Shown here: piece after piece, positions 39,984 through 52,571 of the stretch | How positions within the stretch are numbered: position 1 is the stretch's first letter | Layout: every line of letters starts with the position of its first letter | Assembly: GCF_001425835.1 (NCBI RefSeq) | Contig: NZ_LMDP01000004.1 | Location: forward strand, 1-64,000 | Direction: 5' to 3' | Source: Afipia sp. Root123D2 | Lineage (GTDB): Bacteria; Pseudomonadota; Alphaproteobacteria; Rhizobiales; Xanthobacteraceae | DNA: 64,000 nt | Notes under the pieces: model-generated | What the model saw: the letters and a program-made list of their open reading frames with translations, nothing else | Databases searched by the model: none | What the model was told of the DNA's origin: nothing | Translations under genes and position numbers: made by a program

Positions 39984-41033
39984 ATGCCAAGTCTGTCGGT
40001 GTCTCTCGGGTTTGCGATCGGTCTTACGTTTGGTGTTGTCGGCCTTGTGAGTGGCTTCTGCCTCATGAGTAGCCTGCGCGATTGGTGGACCGCCAATGAC
40101 GGCCGCAAGGTTCGCAGCTTCGCGCTTGCGCTCGCAATTGCCATTTTGGGCACCCAATTCCTGGCGGGCTCCGGTCTCGTCGATATCGCCAAGTCGCTGT
40201 ATCTGCAGCCGTCGTTCTCCGCGCCGGTGATGTTCGCAGGCGGCCTGTTGTTCGGTATCGGCATGGTGCTGTCGAACGGCTGCGCCTCGCGTGCGCTGGT
40301 TCTGCTCGGCAAGGGCAATCTGCGTTCGCTGGTCGTGATCACCGTGATCGGCATTGCCGCGCAGATGACCCTCAAGGGTCTGCTTGCTCCGGCGCGTCTT
40401 GCCTTCATTCAGTGGAGTCAGACCACGGCCTCTGCTGTATCCCTTCCTGATCTGCTCGCAACGCTGGGCATCGATGAAGCCGCGGCTCGCATCGCGGTCG
40501 CGCTGATCGTCAGTGGCGCCCTTCTGATCTTCGCATTCTCCGACCGCCAGTTCCGCCGCACGCCGGTGCAGATTGTCGCCGGCATCCTGGTCGGATTGCT
40601 GGTGCCCGCGGGCTGGATCGCGACCGGCTGGCTTGGGGCCGATGAATTCAATCCGATCCCGGTGACGTCGCTGACGTTCGTATCGCCGCTGGCGGACTCG
40701 GTGCAGTACGTGATGCTGTCGACCGGCATGACGCTGAATTTCGGCATCGCGGTTGTGGCGGGTGTGCTCACCGGCAGCTTGCTGACGGCCGTGCTGACCG
40801 GACGCTTCCAGCTTGAGGGTTACACCTCGCCGAATCACATGGTGAGCTCGATCTCCGGCGCTGCGCTGATGGGCATCGGCGGTGCGATGGCCTACGGTTG
40901 CTCGATCGGGCAGGGCCTCACGGGCGTCTCGACGCTGGCGATACCCTCGCTCGTCGCGGCCGCCGGTATCTTGGCCGGTGCGGCGGTCGCGATCCGTCGC
41001 GGCGCGGTGGTCCCGGTGCTTGCGACGCGGTAA
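39984..41033 (+). CDS. YeeE/YedE (SoxT/TsuA-like) sulfur-compound transporter
   Basis: The 349-residue polytopic protein has two similar halves and the conserved cysteines that define this family: SGFCLMSS (C26), LSNGCASRAL (C100) and AYGCSIGQGL near the C-terminus. In TsuA these cysteines relay thiosulfate across the membrane. ATG 39984 was chosen because upstream in-frame codons fall in the operator and repeat region. It is followed by two exported DsrE-like genes and a second YeeE/YedE gene, so transport of a sulfur species is likely. Confidence 0.85.
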   Translation: MPSLSVSLGFAIGLTFGVVGLVSGFCLMSSLRDWWTANDGRKVRSFALALAIAILGTQFLAGSGLVDIAKSLYLQPSFSAPVMFAGGLLFGIGMVLSNGCASRALVLLGKGNLRSLVVITVIGIAAQMTLKGLLAPARLAFIQWSQTTASAVSLPDLLATLGIDEAAARIAVALIVSGALLIFAFSDRQFRRTPVQIVAGILVGLLVPAGWIATGWLGADEFNPIPVTSLTFVSPLADSVQYVMLSTGMTLNFGIAVVAGVLTGSLLTAVLTGRFQLEGYTSPNHMVSSISGAALMGIGGAMAYGCSIGQGLTGVSTLAIPSLVAAAGILAGAAVAIRRGAVVPVLATR

Positions 41034-41056
41034 ATCCATCCGCATTCGCGATCACG

Positions 41057-41079
41057 CCAAGATGGTTTTGCCATATTGG
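41057..41079. promoter_or_regulatory. Inverted repeat between the YeeE/YedE and first DsrE-like genes
   Basis: CCAAGATGG (41057-41065) and CCATATTGG (41071-41079) pair at 8 of 9 positions around TTTTG. There is no T-run on the plus strand after it. It could be an operator for the DsrE-like pair or an mRNA 3'-end structure. Confidence 0.4.
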
Positions 41080-41138
41080 ATGCGTTAGACTCGCATCGGC
41101 CGAACGCGATGTGCGTGTATTGGCCGAGGTACCGGGAC

Positions 41139-41612
41139 ATGAATCGGCGTCAATTGCTGGTGAGTATTTTGAGCGCGTCAGCCGCGTTGGCGGCTGCGCG
41201 CGGCGCATCGGCTCAGACCGACGCCCCGGCCGTCAAACCGCCGGAAGACAAGCCGTTCGCGGAACATTTCGTCGCGCTCCAACTCTCCGATTCCGATCCC
41301 AAGAAAGAGCGGCTGGTGCTGAGCGTCGCCAGCAATCTGCTGAAAGCCTATGGCGCCGACAAGGTCGCGATCGAGGTCGTGACATTTGGCTCCGGGATCG
41401 ACCTTCTGCGTGAGACCAATGAGTTCCGTACGCTGGTCGACAGTCTCGTCACCCAGGGCGTGCGCTTCGACGTTTGCGGCAACACGCTGGACACCATCGA
41501 ACGCGAAACCGGCAAGCGTCCGGCCATCAATCCGAAAGCGATTGAGGTGCAGGTCGGCGTCGCGCAATTGATTACGTTAAGCCGCAGCGGTTACACCGTT
41601 GTCCGTCCTTGA
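41139..41612 (+). CDS. Exported DsrE-family protein 1
   Basis: The 157-residue protein starts MNRRQLLVSILSASAALAAARGASAQ, a twin-arginine-like signal peptide with cleavage near residue 25. A DsrE/DsrF-like domain follows, with LQLSDSDPKKERLVLSVASN, IEVVTFGSGIDLLRE and Cys113 in FDVCGNTLD. DsrE-type cysteines carry persulfide sulfur. ATG 41139 was chosen since it gives the signal peptide at the N-terminus. Its partner gene starts 14 bp downstream and shares the FGxGxxxLRE and CGNT motifs. Periplasmic sulfur carriage is inferred. Confidence 0.82.
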   Translation: MNRRQLLVSILSASAALAAARGASAQTDAPAVKPPEDKPFAEHFVALQLSDSDPKKERLVLSVASNLLKAYGADKVAIEVVTFGSGIDLLRETNEFRTLVDSLVTQGVRFDVCGNTLDTIERETGKRPAINPKAIEVQVGVAQLITLSRSGYTVVRP

Positions 41613-41626
41613 GAAGGAGTTTTGAG

Positions 41627-42079
41627 ATGCGTTTCCTGTGCCAAGCGATTGCAGCTGTCATGATGCTGGCGTTTGCGACGTCGGCCGGCCTCGCGGCGGA
41701 AGGAAAGCACCATCGCGTCGCCATTCAGGTCGACCAGAACGATCCGCAAATCATGAACCTGGCGCTCAACAACGCGGCCAACATCATGGAGTTCTACAAA
41801 GAGAAGGGCGAGACGGTGGATGTCGAGATCATCACCTTTGGCCCCGGTCTTCACATGCTGCGTGAGGACACCTCGCCGGTGAAGGAGCGGATCAAGCAGA
41901 TCTCGGACCTGAGCTTCCCCAACGACCTCAAGTTCTATGCCTGCGGCAACACCAAGGACGGCATGGAAAAGCACGAGGGCAAGCCGGTCAAGATGATCCC
42001 GGAAGCAAAGCTGGTGCAGTCAGGTGCTGTGCGCCTGCTCGAACTGCAGGAAGAGGGCTGGAGCTACCTGCGGCCGTAA
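41627..42079 (+). CDS. Exported DsrE-family protein 2
   Basis: The 150-residue protein has a Sec-type signal peptide (MRFLCQAIAAVMMLAFATSA, cleavage near LAA-E25). A DsrE-like domain contains HRVAIQVDQNDPQIMNLALN, VEIITFGPGLHMLRED and Cys106 in FYACGNTKDG. AAGGAG lies 7 nt before ATG 41627. It is clearly a paralogue of the preceding gene with the same cysteine site. The two may form a hetero-oligomer, as DsrE-type proteins usually do. It converges with the soxT-type gene 11 bp away. Confidence 0.83.
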   Translation: MRFLCQAIAAVMMLAFATSAGLAAEGKHHRVAIQVDQNDPQIMNLALNNAANIMEFYKEKGETVDVEIITFGPGLHMLREDTSPVKERIKQISDLSFPNDLKFYACGNTKDGMEKHEGKPVKMIPEAKLVQSGAVRLLELQEEGWSYLRP

Positions 42080-42090
42080 TCGCGCGGCTT

Positions 42091-43200
42091 CTAGTCCTGC
42101 GGGCGGTTGCGGCTGCGCAGGCTGGCCCAGCCGCGCTGAATCATGTGACGTGTCGATCCGTCGACCAGAATCGCGATGCCGAGCCGCGCGCCAAGCACCA
42201 TGCCGCCGACCGCGAACGGCCATGACAGTGACAGCATCGATCCGGCGCTGAGGCCCTGGCCGATGGTGCAGCCGCCGGCAAGAATTCCGCCCGCGCCCAT
42301 CAGGGCGGCCCCCGTGAGATGCCGCCGCATTTCGTGATCGTCGTCGAATGCTTCCCAGCGCAGTTCGTCGGAGATCCATGCGGCAAGGCACGACCCTGCA
42401 ACGACCCCGAACACGCTGCCGACTCCGAAATCAGCGAAACTCGCAACGTTCAGAATGCCGGCAAAGATCGCCTTGCCGATGGTCGAGACGAAGGTCAGGC
42501 TTTGCGGGCGAACCGGCCCGGCGAACTCGTCCGCCAGCGTCGTCGTCACGATCCAGCCGCCGACGATGAGAACGCCGAGGATGATGCCGGCGGACAACAG
42601 GCGCGGCGTCCTCCGCAATCGCGGATCACCGAGTGCGAGCCAGCATAGAGTGGCCCCTGCGATCGCGGCCAGCGCAGCGCGCACGTCCAATCCCAGTGCG
42701 TGCGAGGACAGCGACGCCATGTCAGAGCCGACGTTCTCCGGCATCGCCACAGCGAAATTCTCCAGAACGCCGATCCGGAAATCGGCCAGCACACCGCGCA
42801 ATGTGGCGTAGGCCACCGCGCCGAGAACGAGCACGACAACCAGGCTTCGCAAATCGCCGGTGCCGAGCCGCACCAGCGTACCGAATCCGCAGGTGCCGAC
42901 CATCGCCATGCCGACGCCGAACATCAGGCTGCCGATCATGATCGAGATCAGCGGCAGGGCAGGTGGGGTGAAGGTGGTCAGCTGCGGATCGAGAAACCGG
43001 GCGAGGACCAGCGCCTGGGTGCCGAGGATGGCAATGCCGAGAGCGAGCCCGAAAATCCGCATGCGGCGGCTGTCACCGCCCATCAATGCATCCTCGATCG
43101 CGCCGAACGTGCACAGCCGTGCGCGGCGCACGGCAAAGCCCGCCATCGCGCCGATCGCGAAACCGCCGATGGCCGGCATCCAGGCAGACATATCCTGCAT
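42091..43200 (-). CDS. soxT: SoxT-type YeeE/YedE membrane transporter
   Basis: The 369-residue polytopic membrane protein is of the YeeE/YedE family. Conserved cysteine sites are RRARLCTFGAIEDAL near the N-terminus, MVGTCGFGTLVRLG in the first half and GGCTIGQGLSAG near the C-terminus. Its place directly downstream of soxR and soxS on the same strand matches the soxTRS arrangement of Paracoccus. A role in importing a sulfur compound for signalling or assimilation is inferred. A GGGAGGAG site precedes the start. Confidence 0.85.
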   Translation of the reverse strand: MQDMSAWMPAIGGFAIGAMAGFAVRRARLCTFGAIEDALMGGDSRRMRIFGLALGIAILGTQALVLARFLDPQLTTFTPPALPLISIMIGSLMFGVGMAMVGTCGFGTLVRLGTGDLRSLVVVLVLGAVAYATLRGVLADFRIGVLENFAVAMPENVGSDMASLSSHALGLDVRAALAAIAGATLCWLALGDPRLRRTPRLLSAGIILGVLIVGGWIVTTTLADEFAGPVRPQSLTFVSTIGKAIFAGILNVASFADFGVGSVFGVVAGSCLAAWISDELRWEAFDDDHEMRRHLTGAALMGAGGILAGGCTIGQGLSAGSMLSLSWPFAVGGMVLGARLGIAILVDGSTRHMIQRGWASLRSRNRPQD

Positions 43201-43269: not shown

Positions 43270-43644
43270 TTATGGTTTCGCTGCCTCCACGCGCGCGCAG
43301 AAGATGTCGTAGACCACCGAGATCACCCGGCGCACGTCATCATTGGCGAGGCTGTAATAGATCGTCTTGCCGTCGCGGCGCGTATCGACCATGCCGTCGT
43401 AGCGCAGGCGCGCGAGCTGCTGCGACACCGCGGACTGGCGCAGCGACAGGATGTTTTCCAGCTCGGTCACGGAACGTTCGCGCTCGGCCAGCAGGCACAG
43501 CAGCAGGAGACGGTTTTCGTGTGACAGCGCCTTGAGGAAGTTGCTGGCCTTGCGCGCCTTGCGCATGAGCTGGTCGAGCTCGGGCGAGTATTCCGCGCCG
43601 TCGCGCAGTTCGTTTTCCAGATCGGATGAAAGAATCGATGTCAT
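43270..43644 (-). CDS. soxR: SoxR, ArsR-family persulfide-type repressor of sox genes
   Basis: The 124-residue winged-helix protein has the ArsR recognition helix SLRQSAVSQQLARLRYDGMV and wing DTRRDGKTIYYSL. Two cysteines, C50 (LLLLCLL) and C116 (YDIFCAR), are 66 residues apart. SqrR (C41/C107) and BigR (C42/C108) have the same spacing, and their cysteines form a tetrasulfide or disulfide on sulfide stress and release DNA. It lies between soxT and soxS on the minus strand. A dyad at 44084-44111 is its likely operator. Confidence 0.9.
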   Translation of the reverse strand: MTSILSSDLENELRDGAEYSPELDQLMRKARKASNFLKALSHENRLLLLCLLAERERSVTELENILSLRQSAVSQQLARLRYDGMVDTRRDGKTIYYSLANDDVRRVISVVYDIFCARVEAAKP

Positions 43645-43682: not shown

Positions 43683-44081
43683 TCAGGTTCGATTGGGTTC
43701 GGAGTGGGGTGTTTCGATCTTGGCCGCCAGCGCGGCGAGCAGCCCCCAGAACGATTCATCGTTGGCATAGCCGGTGATGCGGCCGATCTCCCGACCGTTA
43801 TCCACCACGACGAAGGTCGGCGTGTAGCGAACCGGCGCGGCAAGGACGATGCCCTCGGCCTTTTGGCGGTCGACATCGATCCGGCGCAGCGGCAGCAGCT
43901 TGGCTTCTTCGGTCCTGCTGTAAATCGGGGCGATGGCCTTGTCCCAGCGCTGGCACCACACGCAGCCGGCGCGCTCGAACATCACAAGTTCGGAGGCGCG
44001 CGCGAGCGTCAGCCCAGACAGGCTGAGCGTCGCCACGGCGAGGGCGATCGCCAAGGATTTTTGCAGTGTCTTTGCGAACAT
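43683..44081 (-). CDS. soxS: SoxS, periplasmic thioredoxin-like protein
   Basis: The 132-residue product has an N-terminal signal peptide (FAKTLQKSLAIALAVATLSL, cleavage near ARA-S). A thioredoxin fold follows, with the redox motif C-V-W-C in ELVMFERAGCVWCQRW and a cis-Pro site in RYTPTFVVVDNG. SoxS reduces and reactivates SoxY in Paracoccus. ATG 44081 is used; an in-frame ATG at 44090 would extend it by three residues into the operator. It is the first gene of the soxS-soxR-soxT transcript, divergent from soxV. Confidence 0.88.
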   Translation of the reverse strand: MFAKTLQKSLAIALAVATLSLSGLTLARASELVMFERAGCVWCQRWDKAIAPIYSRTEEAKLLPLRRIDVDRQKAEGIVLAAPVRYTPTFVVVDNGREIGRITGYANDESFWGLLAALAAKIETPHSEPNRT

Positions 44082-44083
44082 GT

Positions 44084-44111
44084 GATACATATAGACGAAT
44101 TCGCATGTATC
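44084..44111. promoter_or_regulatory. Perfect inverted repeat between soxS and soxV, candidate SoxR operator
   Basis: GATACAT (44084-44090) and ATGTATC (44105-44111) are perfect arms around ATAGACGAATTCGC, which itself contains CGAATTCG. The dyad fills the 49-bp gap between the divergent soxS and soxV starts. Binding there would cover both promoters. The SoxR assignment is by context. Confidence 0.7.
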
Positions 44112-44130
44112 TACCAGTACCGGAAAAGCC

Positions 44131-44874
44131 GTGGTTTCTTCTATTTCGCTAATGGGTGCGCTGGGTGCGGGGTTCTTGTCGTTCCTCTCGCCCTGCGTTT
44201 TGCCGCTGGTTCCGCCGTATCTATGCTTTCTCGCCGGCGTGAGCCTCGATGACCTGACCCGGAGCGATGCACAGCAAAGCAGATTCCCCCAGCGGCGCGT
44301 GGTCGCGATGTCGGTGGCGTTCGTGCTCGGCTTTGCCACGGTGTTCGTCGCGCTTGGGGCGTCGGCCTCGGCGATCGGCAAGACGGTGACGGAGCACTTC
44401 GAAACGCTCGGCATCATCGCGGGCGTGATCATTCTCATTCTCGGCCTGCATTTCCTCGGCGTGTTCAGGATCGGCCTGCTGTTTCGCGAAGCCCGTTTTC
44501 AGACCGCGCGCAAGCCGGCTGGTTTTCTCGGCGCCTATCTGGTCGGCCTCGCATTCGCTTTTGGCTGGACGCCGTGCGTCGGGCCGGTACTGGCGGCGAT
44601 TCTCCTGGTTGCCGGCGTCGAAGGATCGGCGGCGCAGGGCGCGCTGCTGCTCGGCGCTTATGCGCTGGGAATCGGAATTCCGTTCGTGCTGGCGTCGCTG
44701 TTCTCCGGCCCCTTCATCCGGCTGATGGCGCGCTGGCGCAGCCACATGGGTACTGTCGAGAAGGTGATCGGCGGCAGCCTTGTCCTGACCGGGGTTCTGT
44801 TTTTGACTGGCGGCATGCCGCGGATCGCCGGCTGGCTGCTGGAGACATTTCCCGCGTTTGGAACGATCGGCTGA
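44131..44874 (+). CDS. soxV: SoxV, CcdA-type thiol-disulfide transmembrane protein
   Basis: The 247-residue membrane protein has six or so helices and both CcdA cysteine motifs: FLSPCVLPLVPPYLC near the N-terminus and GWTPCVGPVLAAIL in the middle. CcdA/SoxV moves electrons from cytoplasmic thioredoxin to periplasmic SoxW and SoxS. It begins with GTG 44131, preceded by a weak GGAAA; ATG 44152 is an alternative start. SoxW follows 22 bp downstream. Confidence 0.9.
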   Translation: MVSSISLMGALGAGFLSFLSPCVLPLVPPYLCFLAGVSLDDLTRSDAQQSRFPQRRVVAMSVAFVLGFATVFVALGASASAIGKTVTEHFETLGIIAGVIILILGLHFLGVFRIGLLFREARFQTARKPAGFLGAYLVGLAFAFGWTPCVGPVLAAILLVAGVEGSAAQGALLLGAYALGIGIPFVLASLFSGPFIRLMARWRSHMGTVEKVIGGSLVLTGVLFLTGGMPRIAGWLLETFPAFGTIG

Positions 44875-44896
44875 CGCGCAGGCAGGGAGACTTTTC

Positions 44897-45484
44897 GTGA
44901 CGACGCAAAATCATCTTCTAACCAGGCGTCATGCTGTTGCGCTGCTTGGCCTCGGTGCGCTGGGTCTGCGGACTGCTCCGGCGATCGCCAAGGCGCGGCT
45001 CGGCGACGACGGGCTCTATCAGGAAGACTGGTATCTCGAGAGCTTTCTCGACGTGTCCGAGGATCTCGCGGGCGCGACCGCCAAGGGCAAGCGCTTCGCG
45101 ATCCTGTGGGGGCTGAAGGGCTGCCCGTACTGCAAGAAGATGCACGAGGTCCACATGATGGACCCGAAGATCGAGAGCTACATCCGCGATAATTTCGAGA
45201 TTTTGCATCTCAATCATATCGGCTCGCGCGAGGTCACTGATTTCGATGGCCGCAAGCTGACCGAGAAGGCGTTCGGCGAGGCTTATGGCATCCGCTATAC
45301 GCCGACCGTTCAGTTCTTTCCGGCTTCGACCGATGGACTCGCGGGAAAGAAAGGGCAGGCACGGGAGGTTGCGCGGATGCCCGGCCTGCTGGAGCCGCCG
45401 GAATTTCTCGCGATGTTCCGCTACGTGCGCGAGGAAGGCTACAAGTCCGCGCCGTTTCCGGAGTGGCTGAAGAAGCAGGCGTGA
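44897..45484 (+). CDS. soxW: SoxW, periplasmic thioredoxin
   Basis: The 195-residue protein has a twin-arginine-like signal (LLTRRHAVALLGLGALGL, cleavage near AIAKA) and a thioredoxin-type domain. The redox site is C-P-Y-C in WGLKGCPYCKKMHEVHM, and IRYTPTVQFFP holds the cis-Pro. SoxW is the partner of SoxV in keeping Sox proteins reduced. GTG 44897 was chosen because GGGAG lies 7 nt upstream and it places the signal at the N-terminus. Repeats follow the stop. Confidence 0.88.
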   Translation: MTTQNHLLTRRHAVALLGLGALGLRTAPAIAKARLGDDGLYQEDWYLESFLDVSEDLAGATAKGKRFAILWGLKGCPYCKKMHEVHMMDPKIESYIRDNFEILHLNHIGSREVTDFDGRKLTEKAFGEAYGIRYTPTVQFFPASTDGLAGKKGQAREVARMPGLLEPPEFLAMFRYVREEGYKSAPFPEWLKKQA

Positions 45485-45649: not shown

Positions 45650-46150
45650 TCAGAAATCCAGCTTGTCCTGGATCGCGGCGATGCCCGCCTTGGCGCAGGC
45701 ATCGTCGGATTCGCCGCCCGGCGCACCGGACACGCCGATGGCGCCGACAGTCGAACCGCCGGCTTCAATCCTCATCCCGCCGCCCAGCACCACAACGTTT
45801 GGCAACTGGCGCAAGCCGGCTTGCGGCATGCCGGGCTTGGTCAGCGCATCAAGCTCGGTTGTGTTGGTGCGGAATGTCGCCGCGGTCCAAGCCTTGCCGG
45901 TTGCTGTCGGCGGCGTGTGCGGGCCGGCGAAACGATCGCGCAGTAGCACTTGCGGCGTGCCAAAGCGGTCGACAACCGCAACAGCTACCTGAAAACCCTG
46001 CTTCTGACATTCGGCGAGCGCAGCGCGCGCGGCATCGAGGGCAACCTCGAGGCCGAGCGATTTGTAGGTGACCGTCGCGTCCTGCGCCCGCACCGGGAGA
46101 GAGGTAAGGAGGCAGATCGCCGAAACCGCCAGCAAATGATGCATCCTCAT
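45650..46150 (-). CDS. Exported GlcG/HbpS-family heme-binding protein
   Basis: The 166-residue protein has a Sec signal peptide (LLAVSAICLLTSLPVRA, cleavage near residue 23). The GlcG fold shows VAVAVVDRFGTPQVLLRDRF, GKAWTAATFRTNT, VVLGGGMRIEAGG and IGVSGAPGGESDDACAKAGI. Family members bind heme or cobalamin-like ligands, and some act in redox sensing. It is third in a minus-strand set after soxA and soxX. Heme handling for SoxXA or thiosulfate-linked sensing are possibilities, not shown. Confidence 0.85.
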   Translation of the reverse strand: MRMHHLLAVSAICLLTSLPVRAQDATVTYKSLGLEVALDAARAALAECQKQGFQVAVAVVDRFGTPQVLLRDRFAGPHTPPTATGKAWTAATFRTNTTELDALTKPGMPQAGLRQLPNVVVLGGGMRIEAGGSTVGAIGVSGAPGGESDDACAKAGIAAIQDKLDF

Positions 46151-46277: not shown

Positions 46278-46910
46278 TTACTTGTTGACCGGCGATTCCG
46301 GATCGAACAGCAGCGCGACGATGTCCTTGATCTGCTGCTCGGTCAGCACGTGATTGGCGCCGAACCGCGGCATCTGCGAACACGCGAACAGAGCCTGCGC
46401 GTCATAGACCTTGGTGTAGGCGCGCTTGATCTCTTCCGGCTCGTATTTGCGGTCCTTGCCATAGTGCAGCAGGCTCGGGCCGATCGTGCCGTAGCTCAGT
46501 TCCTTGGCATCGAGCTGATGGCAGGCGTAGCAATTGGCGCCGCTCACCGTGCCCGGCTTGTCGGAGAACTGGCCGCCCCGGCCGTTCTTGGCGACCTTCA
46601 TACCTTCTTTCCAGTCGCCCATCATCTTGCCGTCGGCCGGATACGCCACCTTCGCCAGTTCGCGCGCCATGATCTTCTCCGCCTCGGCGGTCGGAACATT
46701 GTTGCGATACTGGTTGCAGGTCTTGAGCGTTTCATCCGGCTGGATGCGGTCCTGCCATTCCTGCGGCGCCTTGCCGAAGGTCGACTTGATGTAGGCTTCC
46801 ACCACGGCCGGATCGGGATGCTTGATCGCGGTCTGGGCCGACGCGGTGAAGGGCAGGGCGGTGATGCCGGCAGCGAGAATCAGCGCGGCGAGTTTCAACG
46901 TCGTTTTCAT
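46278..46910 (-). CDS. soxX: SoxX, monoheme c-type cytochrome of the SoxXA complex
   Basis: The 210-residue protein has a signal peptide ending TASA-Q26, a long N-terminal region, and one heme site C127-Y-A-C-H131. The SoxX markers LSYGTIGPSLLHYG and the axial Met region SQMPRFGANHVLTEQQI follow. SoxXA oxidatively joins thiosulfate to the SoxY cysteine. The gene lies 12 bp downstream of soxA in the same transcript. Confidence 0.93.
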   Translation of the reverse strand: MKTTLKLAALILAAGITALPFTASAQTAIKHPDPAVVEAYIKSTFGKAPQEWQDRIQPDETLKTCNQYRNNVPTAEAEKIMARELAKVAYPADGKMMGDWKEGMKVAKNGRGGQFSDKPGTVSGANCYACHQLDAKELSYGTIGPSLLHYGKDRKYEPEEIKRAYTKVYDAQALFACSQMPRFGANHVLTEQQIKDIVALLFDPESPVNK

Positions 46911-46922
46911 ATCGCGCTCTCC

Positions 46923-47741
46923 TCAGCGTTTAATCGACGGGACCTGGACTTCACCGCCGACTGCCTGTGTCTGCAGGAAGACGTTGAGCGCGGTGAGGGC
47001 GTCCGACGCGTATTCAGGTTTTGGCCAGCGCTGCTGCCGATAGCAGTCGTAAAGACGATGCTGCATGGTCCGCACCGTGCTCTGCGACACGCGATAGGCG
47101 GGCCAGGCGCCCATGGTCTGTTGGGCCTGCTTGCCGGGCTTTGCGAGGTCCGGAAGGTTCTGCAGGCGAATGCGCTTGCCTTCGTCGGCATGGCAGGTCG
47201 CGCAGGAGAAATCGTTCACCCCGCCGCGGCGGAAGAACAGTTCCTCGCCGACCGCAGCCATTTCCTTTTCCTTCGGATGGCTCTGCGGAACGTTGATCTT
47301 CATGCCGCTCGATTTGTTCGCGACATAGGCGACGATGTCCTCGATCTCGGAGGGGTTTCCGGTGGAGGCGAACGGGCGGGCGACGATGTTCTTGGTGTCG
47401 AATCCTTGGCCGTTTTGCATGCACCACAGGAGGCGTTGTTCGAGATCCATCACCTTGTCGGTGTCGGCGAAGTAGCGTGGCAGTTGGGCGTAAGCACCTT
47501 CGAGCTTGCCGGCGCCGAGGCCGAGGTCGCAGCCTTCAAGCGAGACGTTCTTGGTGCCGCGCTTCTCATGCCAGAGCGCCTCGCCGCGATCGACCGCCAG
47601 GAAACCGGGGTTCGACATCGGGTCGGAGATCATCTCCCGATAGCGTTCGATTTCCTTCTCGGTGTCTTGCGCGTGCACTGCAGCGAAAGATGCGCAAAGG
47701 ATCGCCGCCGCGATCGCCGAATGGATAATTGTGCGTCTCAT
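46923..47741 (-). CDS. soxA: SoxA, monoheme diheme-type-derived subunit of SoxXA
   Basis: The 272-residue product has a signal peptide ([14 protein letters not shown], cleavage near residue 24). Only one heme motif is present: C180-A-T-C-H184. C71 and C107 sit where diheme SoxA has its extra heme and probably form a disulfide. C233 in [17 protein letters not shown] is the active-site cysteine that becomes a persulfide heme ligand. ATG 47741 follows GGAGGAG; a longer in-frame reading to 47849 covers the divergent promoter region. It is the first gene of soxA-soxX-glcG. Confidence 0.93.
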
Positions 47742-47924
47742 GTGTCTCCTCCATATCCGGAAGGCCATCTTTTGCGGCCTTTGCGGCTTTGGGTCAGCTC
47801 CGACATCTTTACATTCAAGAAAAACAATATAATGATGTGAGCAGATCATGATAGATCAGACTTGGCATCGTCAAGCGATACTATCGTCAAGGGATGCGAA
47901 AGAACGCCCCTCAGGAGGACTACG
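47742..47924. promoter_or_regulatory. Divergent promoter region between soxA and soxY
   Basis: A perfect TATAAT (47828-47833) lies on the plus strand in an AT-rich patch around 47810-47840 and could serve the soxYZBCD transcript. No good TTGACA lies 17 bp upstream, so activator or alternative sigma use is possible. A loose ACATC...GATGT dyad surrounds it. The exact arms of the soxS-soxV dyad are not repeated here. Confidence 0.5.
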
Positions 47925-48389
47925 ATGATTCTGAAGTCGGTTGAAACAACCCGCCGCGAAACACTGACGCTCGCGGCCATTGCCGGGCTCGCGGCGTTTC
48001 TTGCACCGCGCATTTCCGTGGCGGACGAGAAGGTCGTCGCCGCTGAAATCCAGAAGCTCTACGGCGACAAGAAAATGGAAAGCGGCAAGGTCAAGCTCGA
48101 GGTGCCGGAGATCGCCGAGAATGGTCTGGTCGTGCCGGTTAACGTTGAGGTTGAGAGCCCGATGACCGACAAGGACTACGTCAAGGCGGTTCACGTGTTC
48201 GCCGACGGTAATCCGCTTCCCGGCGTCGTCAGCTACAAGTTCACGCCGGCATGCGGCAAGGCGGCGGCATCGACCCGGATGCGCCTCGCGCAGACCCAGA
48301 ACATTATCTGCATCGCGGAAATGTCGGACGGCAAGCTCTACACCGCCAAGGCGAACGTGAAAGTGACCATCGGCGGCTGCGGCGGCTAA
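47925..48389 (+). CDS. soxY: SoxY, sulfur-carrier subunit of SoxYZ
   Basis: The 154-residue protein has a twin-arginine signal (ETTRRETLTLAAIAGLAAFL). It ends with the diagnostic swinging arm G-G-C-G-G, with Cys152 as the covalent sulfur carrier. SoxYZ shuttles between SoxXA, SoxB and SoxCD in the periplasm. ATG 47925 follows CAGGAGG. soxZ lies 49 bp downstream. Confidence 0.96.
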   Translation: MILKSVETTRRETLTLAAIAGLAAFLAPRISVADEKVVAAEIQKLYGDKKMESGKVKLEVPEIAENGLVVPVNVEVESPMTDKDYVKAVHVFADGNPLPGVVSYKFTPACGKAAASTRMRLAQTQNIICIAEMSDGKLYTAKANVKVTIGGCGG

Positions 48390-48438: not shown

Positions 48439-48768
48439 ATGGCGACCAAATCGACACCGCGCGTTCGCGTTCCGGCATCCGCCAAGCCCGGCGAAATCAT
48501 CGAGATCAAGACTCTCATCTCGCACGAGATGGAATCCGGCCAGCGCAAGGATTCGGCCGGCAAGCCGATCCCGCGCAGGATCATCAACAAGTTTACCGCT
48601 GCTTTCAACGGCAAGGTGGTGTTCGAGGCCGACTGGAATCCCGCCATCTCGGCAAATCCGTATCAGTCGTTCTTCTACAAGGCCGCCGAGCCCGGCGAGT
48701 TCACCTTCACCTGGAAGGACGACGATGGCTCGGAATACACGGCCAAGAACAAGCTGAACGTTGCCTGA
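48439..48768 (+). CDS. soxZ: SoxZ, partner subunit of SoxYZ
   Basis: The 109-residue immunoglobulin-like protein contains PRVRVPASAKPGEIIEIKTL, SHEMESGQRKDSAGKPIPRR and FTFTWKDDDGSEYTAKN, typical SoxZ segments. It has no signal peptide, as expected, because it is exported with SoxY by the Tat system. It follows soxY in the same transcript. Confidence 0.96.
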   Translation: MATKSTPRVRVPASAKPGEIIEIKTLISHEMESGQRKDSAGKPIPRRIINKFTAAFNGKVVFEADWNPAISANPYQSFFYKAAEPGEFTFTWKDDDGSEYTAKNKLNVA

Positions 48769-48832: not shown

Positions 48833-50530
48833 ATGATATCGAGGCGGGATTTCCTGCAGGCGACTGCGGCTGCGTCGGCGCTGCTCACCGGAAGCGGATA
48901 CGGATCGCTCGGCCGAGCTGCCGCTCAACAGCGGCTGACGCAGACGGACATTCTGAAGTTCGATCCGCTCGGCACCGTCACCATTCTCTACATTGCGGAT
49001 ACCCACGCGCAGCTGATGCCGCTGTATTTCCGCGAGCCGTCGGTCAATCTCGGCGTCGGTGAGGATCGCGGCCTGCCGCCGCACATCACCGACGAGGCGT
49101 TCCGGAAGTATTTCCACATCGCTGCCGGTTCGGCTGACGCCTACGCGCTGACCGCCGACGACTTCGTGTCGCTTGCCCGCAACTACGGCAAGATGGGCGG
49201 CATGGATCGCATAGCGACGCTCGTCAACGCGGTGCGCGCCGAGCGCGGCGACGACAAGGTGCTGTTGCTCGACGGCGGCGACACCTGGCAGGGCAGCTGG
49301 ACTTCGCTGCAGACCAAGGCGCAGGACATGGTCGATGTCATGTCGGCGCTCAAGACCGACGCGATGGTCGGCCATTGGGAATTCACCTACGGCGCCGATC
49401 GCGTCAAGGAAATCGCCGACTCGGCGTCGTTTGCTTTCCTTGCGCAGAATATCCGCGATAACGAATGGCAGGAGCCGGTGTTCGAGGGCCGCAAGGTGTT
49501 CGAGCGCGGCGGCGCCAAGGTCGCCGTCATCGGTCAGGCCTTGCCTCGCACGGCGGTCGCCAATCCGCGCTGGATGTTCCCGAAATGGGAATTCGGCATC
49601 CGCGAGGAGGACATGCAGAAGCAGGTCGACGACGCGCGCGCTGAGGGGGCCGACATCGTTGTGCTGCTGTCTCATGACGGTTTCGACGTCGATCGCAAGC
49701 TCGCAAGCCGCGTCAAAGGCATCGACGTCATTCTCACGGCGCACACCCATGATGCGATGCCGGGCCTGATCAAGGTCGACGACACCGTGCTGGTGGCCAC
49801 CGGCTCGCACGGCAAGTTCCTGTCGCGCCTCGATCTCGAGGTGAAGAACAAGAAGGTTACCGGCGTACGCTTCAAGCTGATGCCGGTGTTCACCGATGCG
49901 ATCAAGCCGGATTCAGCAATGACCGCGCTGGTCGAGAAGGTGAGAGCGCCTTACGCCAAGGACCTCGCCCGTGTCGTCGGTAAGACCGATTCGTTGCTCT
50001 ACCGTCGCGGCAATTTCAACGGCACCTTCGACGATCTGATCTGTAACGCGATCATGTCGGAGCGCGATGTCGAGATATCGCTGTCGCCGGGCTTCCGTTG
50101 GGGCGGCAGCCTGCTTCCGGGGCAGGCGATCACCTGGGAAGACATCACCAACGCCACCGCGATCACCTATCCGAACTGCTATCGCAACGAGATGACCGGC
50201 AAGCAGCTCAAGGCTGTACTGGAAGACGTTGCCGACAACATCTTCCACCCCGACCCTTATTTCCAGGGCGGAGGCGACATGGTGCGGATCGGCGGCATGG
50301 GTTACGCGATCGACGTGTCCAAGCCGATGGGCTCGCGCATTTCCGACCTTACGCATCTGAAGTCCGGCAAGCCGATCGATGCCGACAAGACCTACACTGT
50401 TGCCGGCTGGGCCAGCGTCAACGAGGGCACGCGGGGTCCGCCGATCTGGGACCTGCTGTCGGCGCATATTTCCAAGGCTGGCGAAGTGAAGGTCGAACCG
50501 AACACCGCAGTGAAAGTGACGGGAGCCTGA
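48833..50530 (+). CDS. soxB: SoxB, manganese-dependent sulfate thiohydrolase
   Basis: SoxB releases sulfate from SoxY-Cys-S-thiosulfonate. The 565-residue protein has a Tat signal (MISRRDFLQATAAASALLTG). Metallophosphoesterase motifs follow: YIADTHAQLMP, LLDGGDTWQGS, VGHWEFTYG, LSHDGFDVD and TAHTHDAMPG, and then the 5'-nucleotidase C-terminal domain. The length is typical. It lies 64 bp downstream of soxZ. Confidence 0.96.
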   Translation: MISRRDFLQATAAASALLTGSGYGSLGRAAAQQRLTQTDILKFDPLGTVTILYIADTHAQLMPLYFREPSVNLGVGEDRGLPPHITDEAFRKYFHIAAGSADAYALTADDFVSLARNYGKMGGMDRIATLVNAVRAERGDDKVLLLDGGDTWQGSWTSLQTKAQDMVDVMSALKTDAMVGHWEFTYGADRVKEIADSASFAFLAQNIRDNEWQEPVFEGRKVFERGGAKVAVIGQALPRTAVANPRWMFPKWEFGIREEDMQKQVDDARAEGADIVVLLSHDGFDVDRKLASRVKGIDVILTAHTHDAMPGLIKVDDTVLVATGSHGKFLSRLDLEVKNKKVTGVRFKLMPVFTDAIKPDSAMTALVEKVRAPYAKDLARVVGKTDSLLYRRGNFNGTFDDLICNAIMSERDVEISLSPGFRWGGSLLPGQAITWEDITNATAITYPNCYRNEMTGKQLKAVLEDVADNIFHPDPYFQGGGDMVRIGGMGYAIDVSKPMGSRISDLTHLKSGKPIDADKTYTVAGWASVNEGTRGPPIWDLLSAHISKAGEVKVEPNTAVKVTGA

Positions 50531-50605: not shown

Positions 50606-51883
50606 ATGAGTGACAAAGCCTCCGCGGATATTCTCAATCGCCGCAGATTTTTGAGTATTGCAGGTTTGGCCGGCGCGGGTGCCGCGATGTCGTCGCTGCC
50701 GGCCGTTGCCGAAGGCGCCAAACCCGATCCGCTGATCACCGAAGTGCAGGACTGGGAGCGTTATCTCGGCGATGGCGTCGACAAGCGGCCCTACGGCATG
50801 CCGTCGAAGTTCGAGAAGAATGTGATCCGCCGCGACGTGTCGTGGCTGACCGCATCACCGGAATCGTCGGTGAATTTCACGCCGCTTCATGCGCTCGATG
50901 GAATCATCACGCCGTCCGGGCTGTGCTTCGAGCGTCATCACGGCGGCGTCGCCGAGATCAACCCGGACGATCACCGGTTGATGATCAACGGTCTCGTCGA
51001 GCGGCCGCTGGTGTTCACGATGGACGACATCCGGCGCATGCCGCGCGTCAACAAGATTCACTTCCTCGAATGTGCGGCGAACTCCGGCATGGAGTGGCGC
51101 GGCGCGCAGCTCAATGGCTGCCAGTTCACCCACGGCATGGTCCACAACGTCATGTACACCGGCGTCCGGCTGCGGACGCTGCTCGACGAAGCCGGCCTCA
51201 AGCCCAACGTAAAATGGCTGATGCTGGAAGGCGCCGATTCCGCCGGCATGAACCGTTCTCTGCCGATCGAAAAGGCGCTCGACGATGTGCTGATCGCGTT
51301 CGCGATGAACGGCGAGGCGCTGCGGCCTGAGCAAGGCTATCCGCTGCGCGCGGTCATTCCCGGCTGGGAAGGCAATCTGTGGGTCAAGTGGCTGCGCCGC
51401 ATCGAAGCCGGTGACAAGCCGTGGGCGACGCGCGAGGAAACCTCCAAGTACACCGATCTTCTGGCTGACGGCCGCTCGCGCAAGCACACCTTCATCATGG
51501 ATGCGAAGTCGGTGGTGACCAATCCGTCGCCGCAGGCGCCGCTCAAATACAAGGGCCGCAACGTGCTGAGCGGATTCGCCTGGTCGGGCCGCGGCACGGT
51601 CAAGCGCGTCGACGTCACTATCGACGGTGGCCGCAACTGGCAGACCGCGCGGATCGACGGCCCGGTGCTCGACAAGTCGCTGGTGCGCTTCTACGTCGAC
51701 CTCGACTGGGACGGCCGCGAAATGATGATCCAGTCGCGGGCGATGGATTCGACCGGCTACGTCCAGCCGACCAAGGCCGAACTGCGCAAGGTGCGCGGCG
51801 TCAACTCGATCTACCACAACAACGGCATTCAGACCTGGCTGGTGCACAAGAGCGGGGAGACCGAGAATGTCGAGATTGCCTAA
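50606..51883 (+). CDS. soxC: SoxC, molybdenum subunit of sulfane dehydrogenase
   Basis: The 425-residue sulfite oxidase-family protein has a Tat signal (NRRRFLSIAGLAGAGAAMSS) and Moco-ligand Cys156 in IHFLECAANSGMEWRG. The dimerisation domain begins near KYKGRNVLSGFAWSGRGTVK. With SoxD it oxidises the sulfane sulfur left on SoxY, so the pathway can go fully to sulfate without sulfur globules. It overlaps soxD by 17 bp. Confidence 0.96.
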   Translation: MSDKASADILNRRRFLSIAGLAGAGAAMSSLPAVAEGAKPDPLITEVQDWERYLGDGVDKRPYGMPSKFEKNVIRRDVSWLTASPESSVNFTPLHALDGIITPSGLCFERHHGGVAEINPDDHRLMINGLVERPLVFTMDDIRRMPRVNKIHFLECAANSGMEWRGAQLNGCQFTHGMVHNVMYTGVRLRTLLDEAGLKPNVKWLMLEGADSAGMNRSLPIEKALDDVLIAFAMNGEALRPEQGYPLRAVIPGWEGNLWVKWLRRIEAGDKPWATREETSKYTDLLADGRSRKHTFIMDAKSVVTNPSPQAPLKYKGRNVLSGFAWSGRGTVKRVDVTIDGGRNWQTARIDGPVLDKSLVRFYVDLDWDGREMMIQSRAMDSTGYVQPTKAELRKVRGVNSIYHNNGIQTWLVHKSGETENVEIA

Positions 51884-52571
51884 GTTGCTGGTGCTCGCCG
51901 CACTCGGCGGGCTGTCGCTCACTGCTTTTAGCTTGCCAGCGTCGGCGCAACAGGCCGCGTCTTCCAGCGCAACAGCGCACCCGAAAAAACTGGGTCTTGG
52001 CCGCGTCGCATTGCCGGAAGAAATCAAGGCGTGGGATACCGATGTGCGGCCGGACGGATTGGGTCTGCCGGTCGGCAAGGGCACGGTGAAGGAAGGCGAT
52101 GCGCTGTTTCAGGAGCGTTGCGCATCCTGCCACGGCGAATTCGGTGAAGGCGCCGGACGATGGCCGGTTTTGGCGGGCGGCCAGGGTTCGCTGAAAGCGG
52201 ATCGGCCGGACAAGACCATCGGCTCGTTCTGGCCCGATCTGTCGACGGTGTTCGATTACATTCGCCGGGCGATGCCGTTCGGCAACGCGCAGTCGCTGAC
52301 CGATGACGAGGCCTATGCTCTGACGGCTTATCTCCTCAGTCTCAATGACATCGTGAAGGATGAGAATTTCGAGCTGAACAACAAGAATTTCACCTCGATC
52401 AAGATGCCCAACGCGTCTGCCTTCTATGACGACGATCGCGAAGTTGCGGAAAAGCAATTCTGGGAGAAAGACCCGTGCATGAAGGATTGCCGCGACGCCC
52501 CGAAAGTCGTGGGCCGCGCCATGGCGATCGACGTGACGCCTGACAGCAAGGAAGGGCCGAAGGTCGAGTGA
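51867..52571 (+). CDS. soxD: SoxD, c-type cytochrome subunit of sulfane dehydrogenase (short, monoheme)
   Basis: The 234-residue protein has a signal peptide ending PASA-Q28 and one heme motif C85-A-S-C-H89 in FQERCASCHGEFGEGAGRWP. Paracoccus SoxD is longer (about 380 residues) with two hemes; the second heme domain is absent here. A C-P-C-M-K-D-C region near the end (DPCMKDCRDAPKVVGRAM) is kept. The product would pass electrons from SoxC to a soluble cytochrome, plausibly the next gene. Confidence 0.92.
   Translation: MSRLPKLLVLAALGGLSLTAFSLPASAQQAASSSATAHPKKLGLGRVALPEEIKAWDTDVRPDGLGLPVGKGTVKEGDALFQERCASCHGEFGEGAGRWPVLAGGQGSLKADRPDKTIGSFWPDLSTVFDYIRRAMPFGNAQSLTDDEAYALTAYLLSLNDIVKDENFELNNKNFTSIKMPNASAFYDDDREVAEKQFWEKDPCMKDCRDAPKVVGRAMAIDVTPDSKEGPKVE

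Follow-up and report, generated by a model that had tools for sequence, protein, structure and literature searches.

Exported DsrE-fold proteins beside a YeeE/YedE transporter in Afipia: candidate periplasmic sulfur carriers of the Sox system

What might two DsrE-like proteins with predicted export signals be doing between two YeeE/YedE-family transporters, at the edge of a sox cluster? The question is raised by a locus of Afipia sp. Root123D2, in a stretch of 64,000 nucleotides (contig NZ_LMDP01000004.1 of assembly GCF_001425835.1, positions 1 to 64,000; hereafter the window) that comes from contig 4 of a genome of 4.8 Mb; the nearest named relatives of DsrE1 are from Afipia. Four adjacent genes make up the locus: YeeA (39984–41033, + strand), DsrE1 (41139–41612, +; 157 amino acids), DsrE2 (41627–42079, +; 150 amino acids) and YeeB (42091–43200, −), the last convergent to the other three, just as a first-pass annotation of the sequence had described them. 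YeeA and DsrE1 are separated by 105 bases, DsrE1 and DsrE2 by 14. We favor the reading, with a probability of roughly 45%, that DsrE1 and DsrE2 are periplasmic, single-cysteine carriers of sulfane sulfur that belong to the Sox system and that deliver this sulfur to YeeA in the Afipia lineage. Sequence or prediction indicates the features on which this reading builds: an export signal, the DsrE fold, an invariant cysteine, linkage to sox, and co-occurrence with YeeA.

DsrE1 and DsrE2 are paralogs, as had been proposed (33% identity across 123 columns, E 1e-23), and they share the motif FGxGxxxLRE (FGSGIDLLRE and FGPGLHMLRE, respectively). Each has a single cysteine in its mature portion: Cys113 of DsrE1 (codon 41475–41477) is the only one in that protein, while Cys106 of DsrE2 (codon 41942–41944) is accompanied by Cys5 within the signal peptide. 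Both N-termini are predicted to be signal peptides, by a scan for hydrophobicity and AxA rather than by SignalP, and the n-region of DsrE1 carries RR. All 63 DsrE proteins that we scanned, drawn from the window and 40 fetched loci, have a hydrophobic N-terminal segment of the signal-peptide type, a result that supports rather than proves export, since the start-codon choice of the scanning script favors hydrophobic N-termini.

The mature cysteine is kept in 29/29 and 34/34 aligned DsrE proteins. At the named loci that are described below, all 77 complete DsrE1 proteins contain the motif C-[LGV]-N-T; among 33 DsrE2 proteins, the cysteine is found in every one and the form C-x-N-T in 31. In a set of 12 diverse homologs (including Methylosinus, Sulfurovum and Acidithiobacillus), the only invariant positions are this cysteine and one glycine, and the cysteine aligns with one in each of MTH1491 and ST0148. 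AlphaFold models of the mature domains of both DsrE1 and DsrE2 are confident and adopt a DsrE fold, which places both proteins in the DsrE superfamily by predicted structure. DsrE2 also matches PF02635 (24.7 bits; cut-off 22.7), and DsrE1 has no Pfam match at 1e-3. A six-frame search of the genome with PF02635 returned no matches at 1e-3; it missed even DsrE2, and so is uninformative concerning further DsrE proteins.

How well is the neighborhood conserved? Our census drew upon genomes of the family, one scan of named genomes, and plasmid records; the named-genome scan covered the best 80 of 184 DsrE1-type loci, with flanks of up to 10 kb on each side. YeeA lies directly upstream of DsrE1, with a convergent YeeB downstream, in 23 of these 80 loci, a recurrence that is more than chance. 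Tardiphaga robiniae LMG 26467 (L093) is among the strains that carry such a locus. At 55 loci, soxB is the direct upstream neighbor, in the order soxC-D-X-Y-Z-A-B-DsrE1-DsrE2-HbpS or a shortened version of it; the SoxB of this arrangement is ~45–50% identical to that of the window, which indicates another sox cluster lineage. The other two loci have neither gene upstream in the sequence covered (L107 and L118; L and G numbers are our handles for loci and genomes): L118 begins 24 bases into its contig, and L107 has 9.8 kb upstream with no sox match. The neighborhood is conserved in relatives, though variable, a point that the first-pass annotation had offered as a check upon itself, and the linkage of DsrE to sox across the named loci bears out the connection to sox that it had drawn.

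DsrE2 is present in 13 of the 23 YeeA-type loci and in 19 of the 55 soxB-type loci. One genome (G140) holds both arrangements (L044 and L054), and another (G095) has the soxB arrangement with YeeA at its opposite end (L045). In the family sample, YeeA-DsrE2-YeeB occurs without DsrE1 in G005, G028, G045, G050, G108, G125 and the fragmentary G059, and YeeA-YeeB without any DsrE in G016 (L071, L172 and L173 are among the loci of these two kinds). These DsrE2-only loci, together with a DsrE-less one, indicate that DsrE1 and DsrE2 are not an obligate pair: besides the pair bracketed by two transporters, the locus also comes in DsrE1-only, DsrE2-only and DsrE-less forms, and this variable DsrE content rules out a fixed four-gene module.

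We also recorded recurrent neighbors of DsrE in the soxB arrangement. An HbpS-like gene is closely downstream of DsrE1 in 14 of the 80 named loci, and two contigs of Nitrobacter metagenome-assembled genomes (L121 and L126) read soxB-DsrE1-DsrE2-HbpS. The gene after DsrE1/DsrE2/HbpS encodes a protein with metallo-beta-lactamase and rhodanese parts in 24 of 28 clustered loci (in L145, 11322–12362); metallo-beta-lactamase matches are found near DsrE in further sox clusters as well.

Another observation is that the association of DsrE1 with YeeA extends to genomes in which the two genes are unlinked. In a sample of 149 family genomes, strong DsrE1 (E <1e-40) was found in 28, close YeeA (E <1e-130) in 36, and SoxB above cut-off in 89. 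YeeA is present in 26 of the 28 DsrE1 genomes, versus 10 of the remaining 121; when only SoxB-positive genomes are considered, the corresponding values are 26/28 with DsrE1 and 9/61 without it. One genus (g43) provides a single clean contrast: G095 has DsrE1, YeeA and SoxB, whereas G043 has SoxB with neither strong DsrE1 nor close YeeA.

Several observations weigh against our favored reading. The thresholds for co-occurrence were chosen after the lists had been viewed, and the sampled genomes share ancestry (those 28 with DsrE1 represent 7 genera) that was left out of account, so the p values make the association look stronger than it is. Two DsrE1 genomes (G127 and G139) have no close YeeA. 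In genus g20, both DsrE1 genomes have YeeA and the other four (G019, G061, G102 and G119) do not; these four also lack SoxB, so the contrast may stem from sox alone. None of the 55 soxB-type loci has a YeeA or YeeB match in the stretch covered (≤10 kb on each side), and in G016 YeeA and YeeB are adjacent with no DsrE gene. In most Bradyrhizobium-like genomes, YeeA is apart from sox, among phenylacetate-degradation-like genes (read by eye); it is likewise unlinked in most genomes that have the soxB arrangement. Several DsrE2 relatives have no sox match in the fetched stretch. Finally, in an alignment the YeeA promoter displays no clear operator shared with sox promoters, only a short, weak block. 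As to YeeA itself, its close homologs in L155–L171, from genomes that have the soxB arrangement, are mostly among phenylacetate-degradation-like genes together with an OsmC-fusion hydrolase (again read by eye); as to DsrE2, relatives that lack annotated sox neighbors occur on plasmids of Azospirillum and Rhizobium.

The soxB-type loci invite a different interpretation, namely, that DsrE acts solely in the periplasm, where it would strip over-long or dead-end chains of sulfane sulfur from SoxY, or buffer polysulfide, the function of YeeA being separate. Such maintenance of SoxYZ would suit the position of DsrE1 after soxB, with no YeeE match in the covered stretch, at 55 of the 80 named loci; it would also suit the location of DsrE between soxZ and soxA in two other genomes (L184 and L185), and the recurrence of metallo-beta-lactamase or thioredoxin genes as neighbors. 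We nevertheless consider it rather unlikely, because YeeA follows DsrE1 even when unlinked (the 26/28 versus 9/61 described above), and because YeeE shares a stretch with DsrE and sox in four of eight loci outside the family.

The likely receiver in our carrier hypothesis is YeeA. YeeA and YeeB (PF04143, E 1.4e-60 and 2e-53, respectively) are both YeeE proteins of the long kind. They share with TsuA and SoxT three cysteines (Cys26, Cys100 and Cys306 in YeeA), which are present in all 56 YeeE rows that we examined (one gene being counted twice). YeeA aligns with TsuA (PDB: 6leo), the three cysteines included, and belongs to a clade of 32 rows (31 different; support 100/100; three cysteines in 32/32) that is separate from YeeB; its deeper placement is unsure, as the program flags long branches elsewhere in the tree. 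YeeB groups (100/98, in a tree with long branches) with the YeeE proteins of soxSRT-type units from Rhodobacter sp. CZR27, Ruegeria and a Paracoccus plasmid. With its YeeE-family membership, its three channel cysteines, and soxR and soxS alongside, YeeB is by sequence the ordinary SoxT of a soxS-soxR-soxT unit. Of the two transporters that had been described as SoxT-type, YeeB belongs to a known unit, and YeeA is not the SoxT of that unit. More generally, the earlier interpretation of the locus is supported in part: it retains predicted export, the invariant cysteine, the sox link and the statistical link to YeeA, and loses the bracketed pair as a fixed arrangement. YeeA is flanked by DsrE1 and a molybdenum-hydroxylase-like open reading frame (read by eye). 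A YeeE that is 42% identical to YeeA was noted on a Paracoccus alcaliphilus plasmid (L201, 5401–10181), flanked by two flavin oxidoreductases and followed by soxY and soxZ.

The alignment of YeeA with TsuA, three cysteines included, could also be taken to mean that the cargo is thiosulfate: DsrE would then hold Cys-S-SO3 and act like a substrate-binding protein for YeeA, as a TsuA-like thiosulfate channel. There is a precedent in that DsrE3A from Metallosphaera cuprina is reported to carry thiosulfate (PMC4175335). We regard this idea as improbable: YeeA scores far under both NCBIfam cut-offs for TsuA (107.9 bits against the equivalog value of 400 for NF052577; 58.5 against 645 for NF041049), and at 55 of the 80 named DsrE1 loci a channel gene was not seen in the covered stretch. 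The fact that the YeeA-type locus adjoins soxT-soxR-soxS might suggest that DsrE offers sulfane sulfur to SoxT/YeeA purely as a signal, by which SoxR senses substrate; SoxT1B, a relative of YeeB, is reported to signal to SoxR in Hyphomicrobium (PMC11582611). That DsrE has this role only seems to us very improbable: in Rhodobacter sp. CZR27 and Ruegeria, soxSRT-type units are annotated with no adjacent DsrE (in a gene table that is incomplete), and the other arrangement puts DsrE1 beside soxB, where the series of structural genes ends.

We return to DsrE as a carrier that serves YeeA, for which we infer persulfide chemistry, SoxYZ as donor, YeeA as receiver, and the direction of transfer. Sulfane sulfur from the SoxYZ cycle would be loaded, either directly or via SoxS/SoxW, onto the DsrE cysteine as Cys-S-SH; the loaded DsrE would then pass its sulfur onward, in the Afipia lineage probably to the cysteine-lined channel of YeeA, while YeeB/SoxT would run in parallel, informing the repressor SoxR. 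By analogy, such chemistry is plausible for DsrE1 and DsrE2, since the DsrE of Allochromatium is described as binding sulfur at Cys78 and then transferring it (PMC3397948).

How much sulfur might take this route? The Sox system of the Afipia genome is complete, SoxC included, so bulk import of sulfur is not obviously needed; the flux would probably be small, in the service of signalling, assimilation or the relief of over-loaded SoxY, and not of bulk oxidation. SoxC is above cut-off in 34 of 38 genomes examined (that of Afipia among them) and in 25 of the 28 DsrE1 genomes (the exceptions being G024, G086 and G093); import for bulk oxidation is thus unneeded in most of them, and the lesser roles fit better. 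Compensation for an absent SoxCD is mostly rejected on this same count. The feeding of a cytoplasmic Hdr-like pathway was considered as well and seems unlikely: matches to the CCG domain (PF02754) occur at three separate sites, within reading frames that are 389, 454 and 524 amino acids long, a pattern that does not resemble an sHdr cluster.

Does the association extend beyond the family of Afipia? We searched 349 Pseudomonadota genomes with a DsrE profile; at most 11 candidates were scored per genome, so the DsrE counts are lower bounds: at least 62 genomes match the DsrE profile, 52 have SoxB above cut-off, and at least 34 have both (odds ratio 18). The DsrE match is <20 kb from SoxB in at least 18 genomes, of which 8 are outside the family, and at four of these eight loci (L181, L183, L186 and L187) a YeeE match shares the stretch with DsrE and sox. 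Among 21 proteins of the sample that were examined for export, the start resembles a signal peptide in 18; in L186 and L189a the hydrophobic segment comes later than the N-terminus, and the start of L184 was mis-called, which precludes a verdict. Relatives in sox clusters occur in other Pseudomonadota, Methylosinus and Sulfurovum. In a tree of 73 DsrE proteins (with several long rows, and 18 rows excluded beforehand), DsrE1 forms one clade with a single outsider (L182), and sox-linked members are spread across several branches, four of which are DsrE1, DsrE2, L181/L183/L185/L187, and Sulfurovum-DsrEa/L188. We tentatively raise the possibility, which we hold with some doubt, that exported DsrE is a missing periplasmic relay of sulfane sulfur from SoxYZ to SoxT/YeeE channels, recruited or kept by sox clusters, in Pseudomonadota and Campylobacterota, out of four or more branches of the DsrE family. 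Among the sox-linked DsrE genes, two are adjoined by DUF302 proteins, in Methylosinus and Sulfurovum (L176, 8942–9520; L180, 8401–9327); DUF302 is known in sox clusters of Acidithiobacillia (PMC5037610).

The remainder of the cluster lies to the right of YeeB. SoxX, SoxA, SoxY, SoxZ, SoxB and SoxC are named by NCBIfam cut-offs; SoxR, SoxS, SoxV, SoxW and SoxD by domain and position. In order, these genes encode SoxR, an ArsR-family repressor with Cys50 and Cys116 (43270–43644, −; HTH_5, its best NCBIfam match, BigR, being under cut-off); a SoxS-like thioredoxin with CxxC at residues 39–42 of the reading frame as read (43683–44081, −; Thioredoxin_2); SoxV, of the DsbD transmembrane type (44131–44874, +; PF02683); a SoxW-like thioredoxin (44858–45484, +; PF13098); an HbpS-like protein, which recurs as a neighbor in both arrangements (45650–46150, −; PF03928, E 2.6e-31); SoxX (46278–46910, −; TIGR04485); SoxA (46923–47768, −; TIGR04484); SoxY (47925–48389, +; TIGR04488); SoxZ (48439–48768, +; TIGR04490); SoxB (48833–50530, +; TIGR04486, 858 bits versus a cut-off of 550); SoxC (50606–51883, +; TIGR04555); and a SoxD-like cytochrome (51867–52571, +), which follows soxC and has no specific NCBIfam match. 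Two non-coding stretches, one in the soxS–soxV gap (44080–44120; 20 sequences) and one in the soxA–soxY gap (47810–47890; 16 sequences), are strongly conserved and are candidate SoxR operators. With respect to the other arrangement, thiosulfate oxidation by Bradyrhizobium diazoefficiens is reported to require soxY1 and not soxY2 (PMC5748708); if soxY2 belongs to the soxB-DsrE1 cluster, then that cluster would be non-essential in this organism.

For the route by which sulfur moves from SoxYZ to a SoxT-type transporter, proteins of the general thiol-disulfide kind have been considered (PMC11582611); a recurrent family of single-cysteine DsrE proteins with export signals, inside sox clusters, offers a specific and testable candidate for this step. 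Some of its members are already in print. Sulfitobacter sox clusters are described as holding a DsrE-family orf of unknown function, which in S. noctilucicola shares one cluster with DUF302 and YeeE/YedE orfs, and a 'heme-binding protein' orf is listed in a Sulfitobacter sox cluster (PMC11034169). A sox-linked dsrE of Sulfurovum indicum, called periplasmic and reported as a thioredoxin, is up together with soxW and soxH1 on thiosulfate versus sulfur (PMC10045233). The accessible portions of these reports draw no link to a transporter and give no cysteine or family analysis. In the open-licence literature we found no proposal that connects exported DsrE with YeeE/SoxT; the mechanism that joins them is apparently new.

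Among known systems, the nearest for the transporters is that of Hyphomicrobium denitrificans, in which two YeeE proteins, SoxT1A and SoxT1B, are likewise near sox, one of them beside soxR. The rhodanese, DsbA and sHdr genes that neighbor SoxT1A are not adjacent to YeeA, and the periplasmic presenters considered there are DsbA and SoxS; the sole mention of DsrE in the main text of that study is of the cytoplasmic DsrE3C, and an exported DsrE is not named (PMC11582611). The YeeE-TusA-DsrE arrangement (the YTD cluster, or DsrEFH type II) similarly puts a DsrE-fold gene near a YeeE gene, but its DsrE is proposed to be cytoplasmic, acting after TusA and downstream of import (PMC13293266, PMC13047784), whereas the DsrE proteins of the window have an export signal; TusA is not at the Afipia locus, the one TusA match of the genome being on another contig (G000:C1:410847). 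Among solved structures, MTH1491 and ST0148 (PDB: 1l1s and 2pd2) are nearest in both sequence and fold, MTH1491 (labelled a protein of unknown function in its PDB entry) being the closest, and their cysteine is in the same place; a literature search for MTH1491 brought up no account of what it does. Their solved chains begin at the fold, such that residues 42–157 of the DsrE model correspond to their residues 3–113; the window proteins, unlike these, carry an export signal ahead of the fold and stand in a sox context. As for DsrEFH/TusBCD, it is described as a cytoplasmic hexamer in which DsrE is joined by DsrF and DsrH (PMC3397948), whereas DsrE1 and DsrE2 are predicted to be exported and are adjoined by YeeA and YeeB, with no DsrF- or DsrH-like gene next to them; if they do carry sulfur as we propose, a well-known cytoplasmic carrier fold would have moved to the periplasm and been built into Sox.

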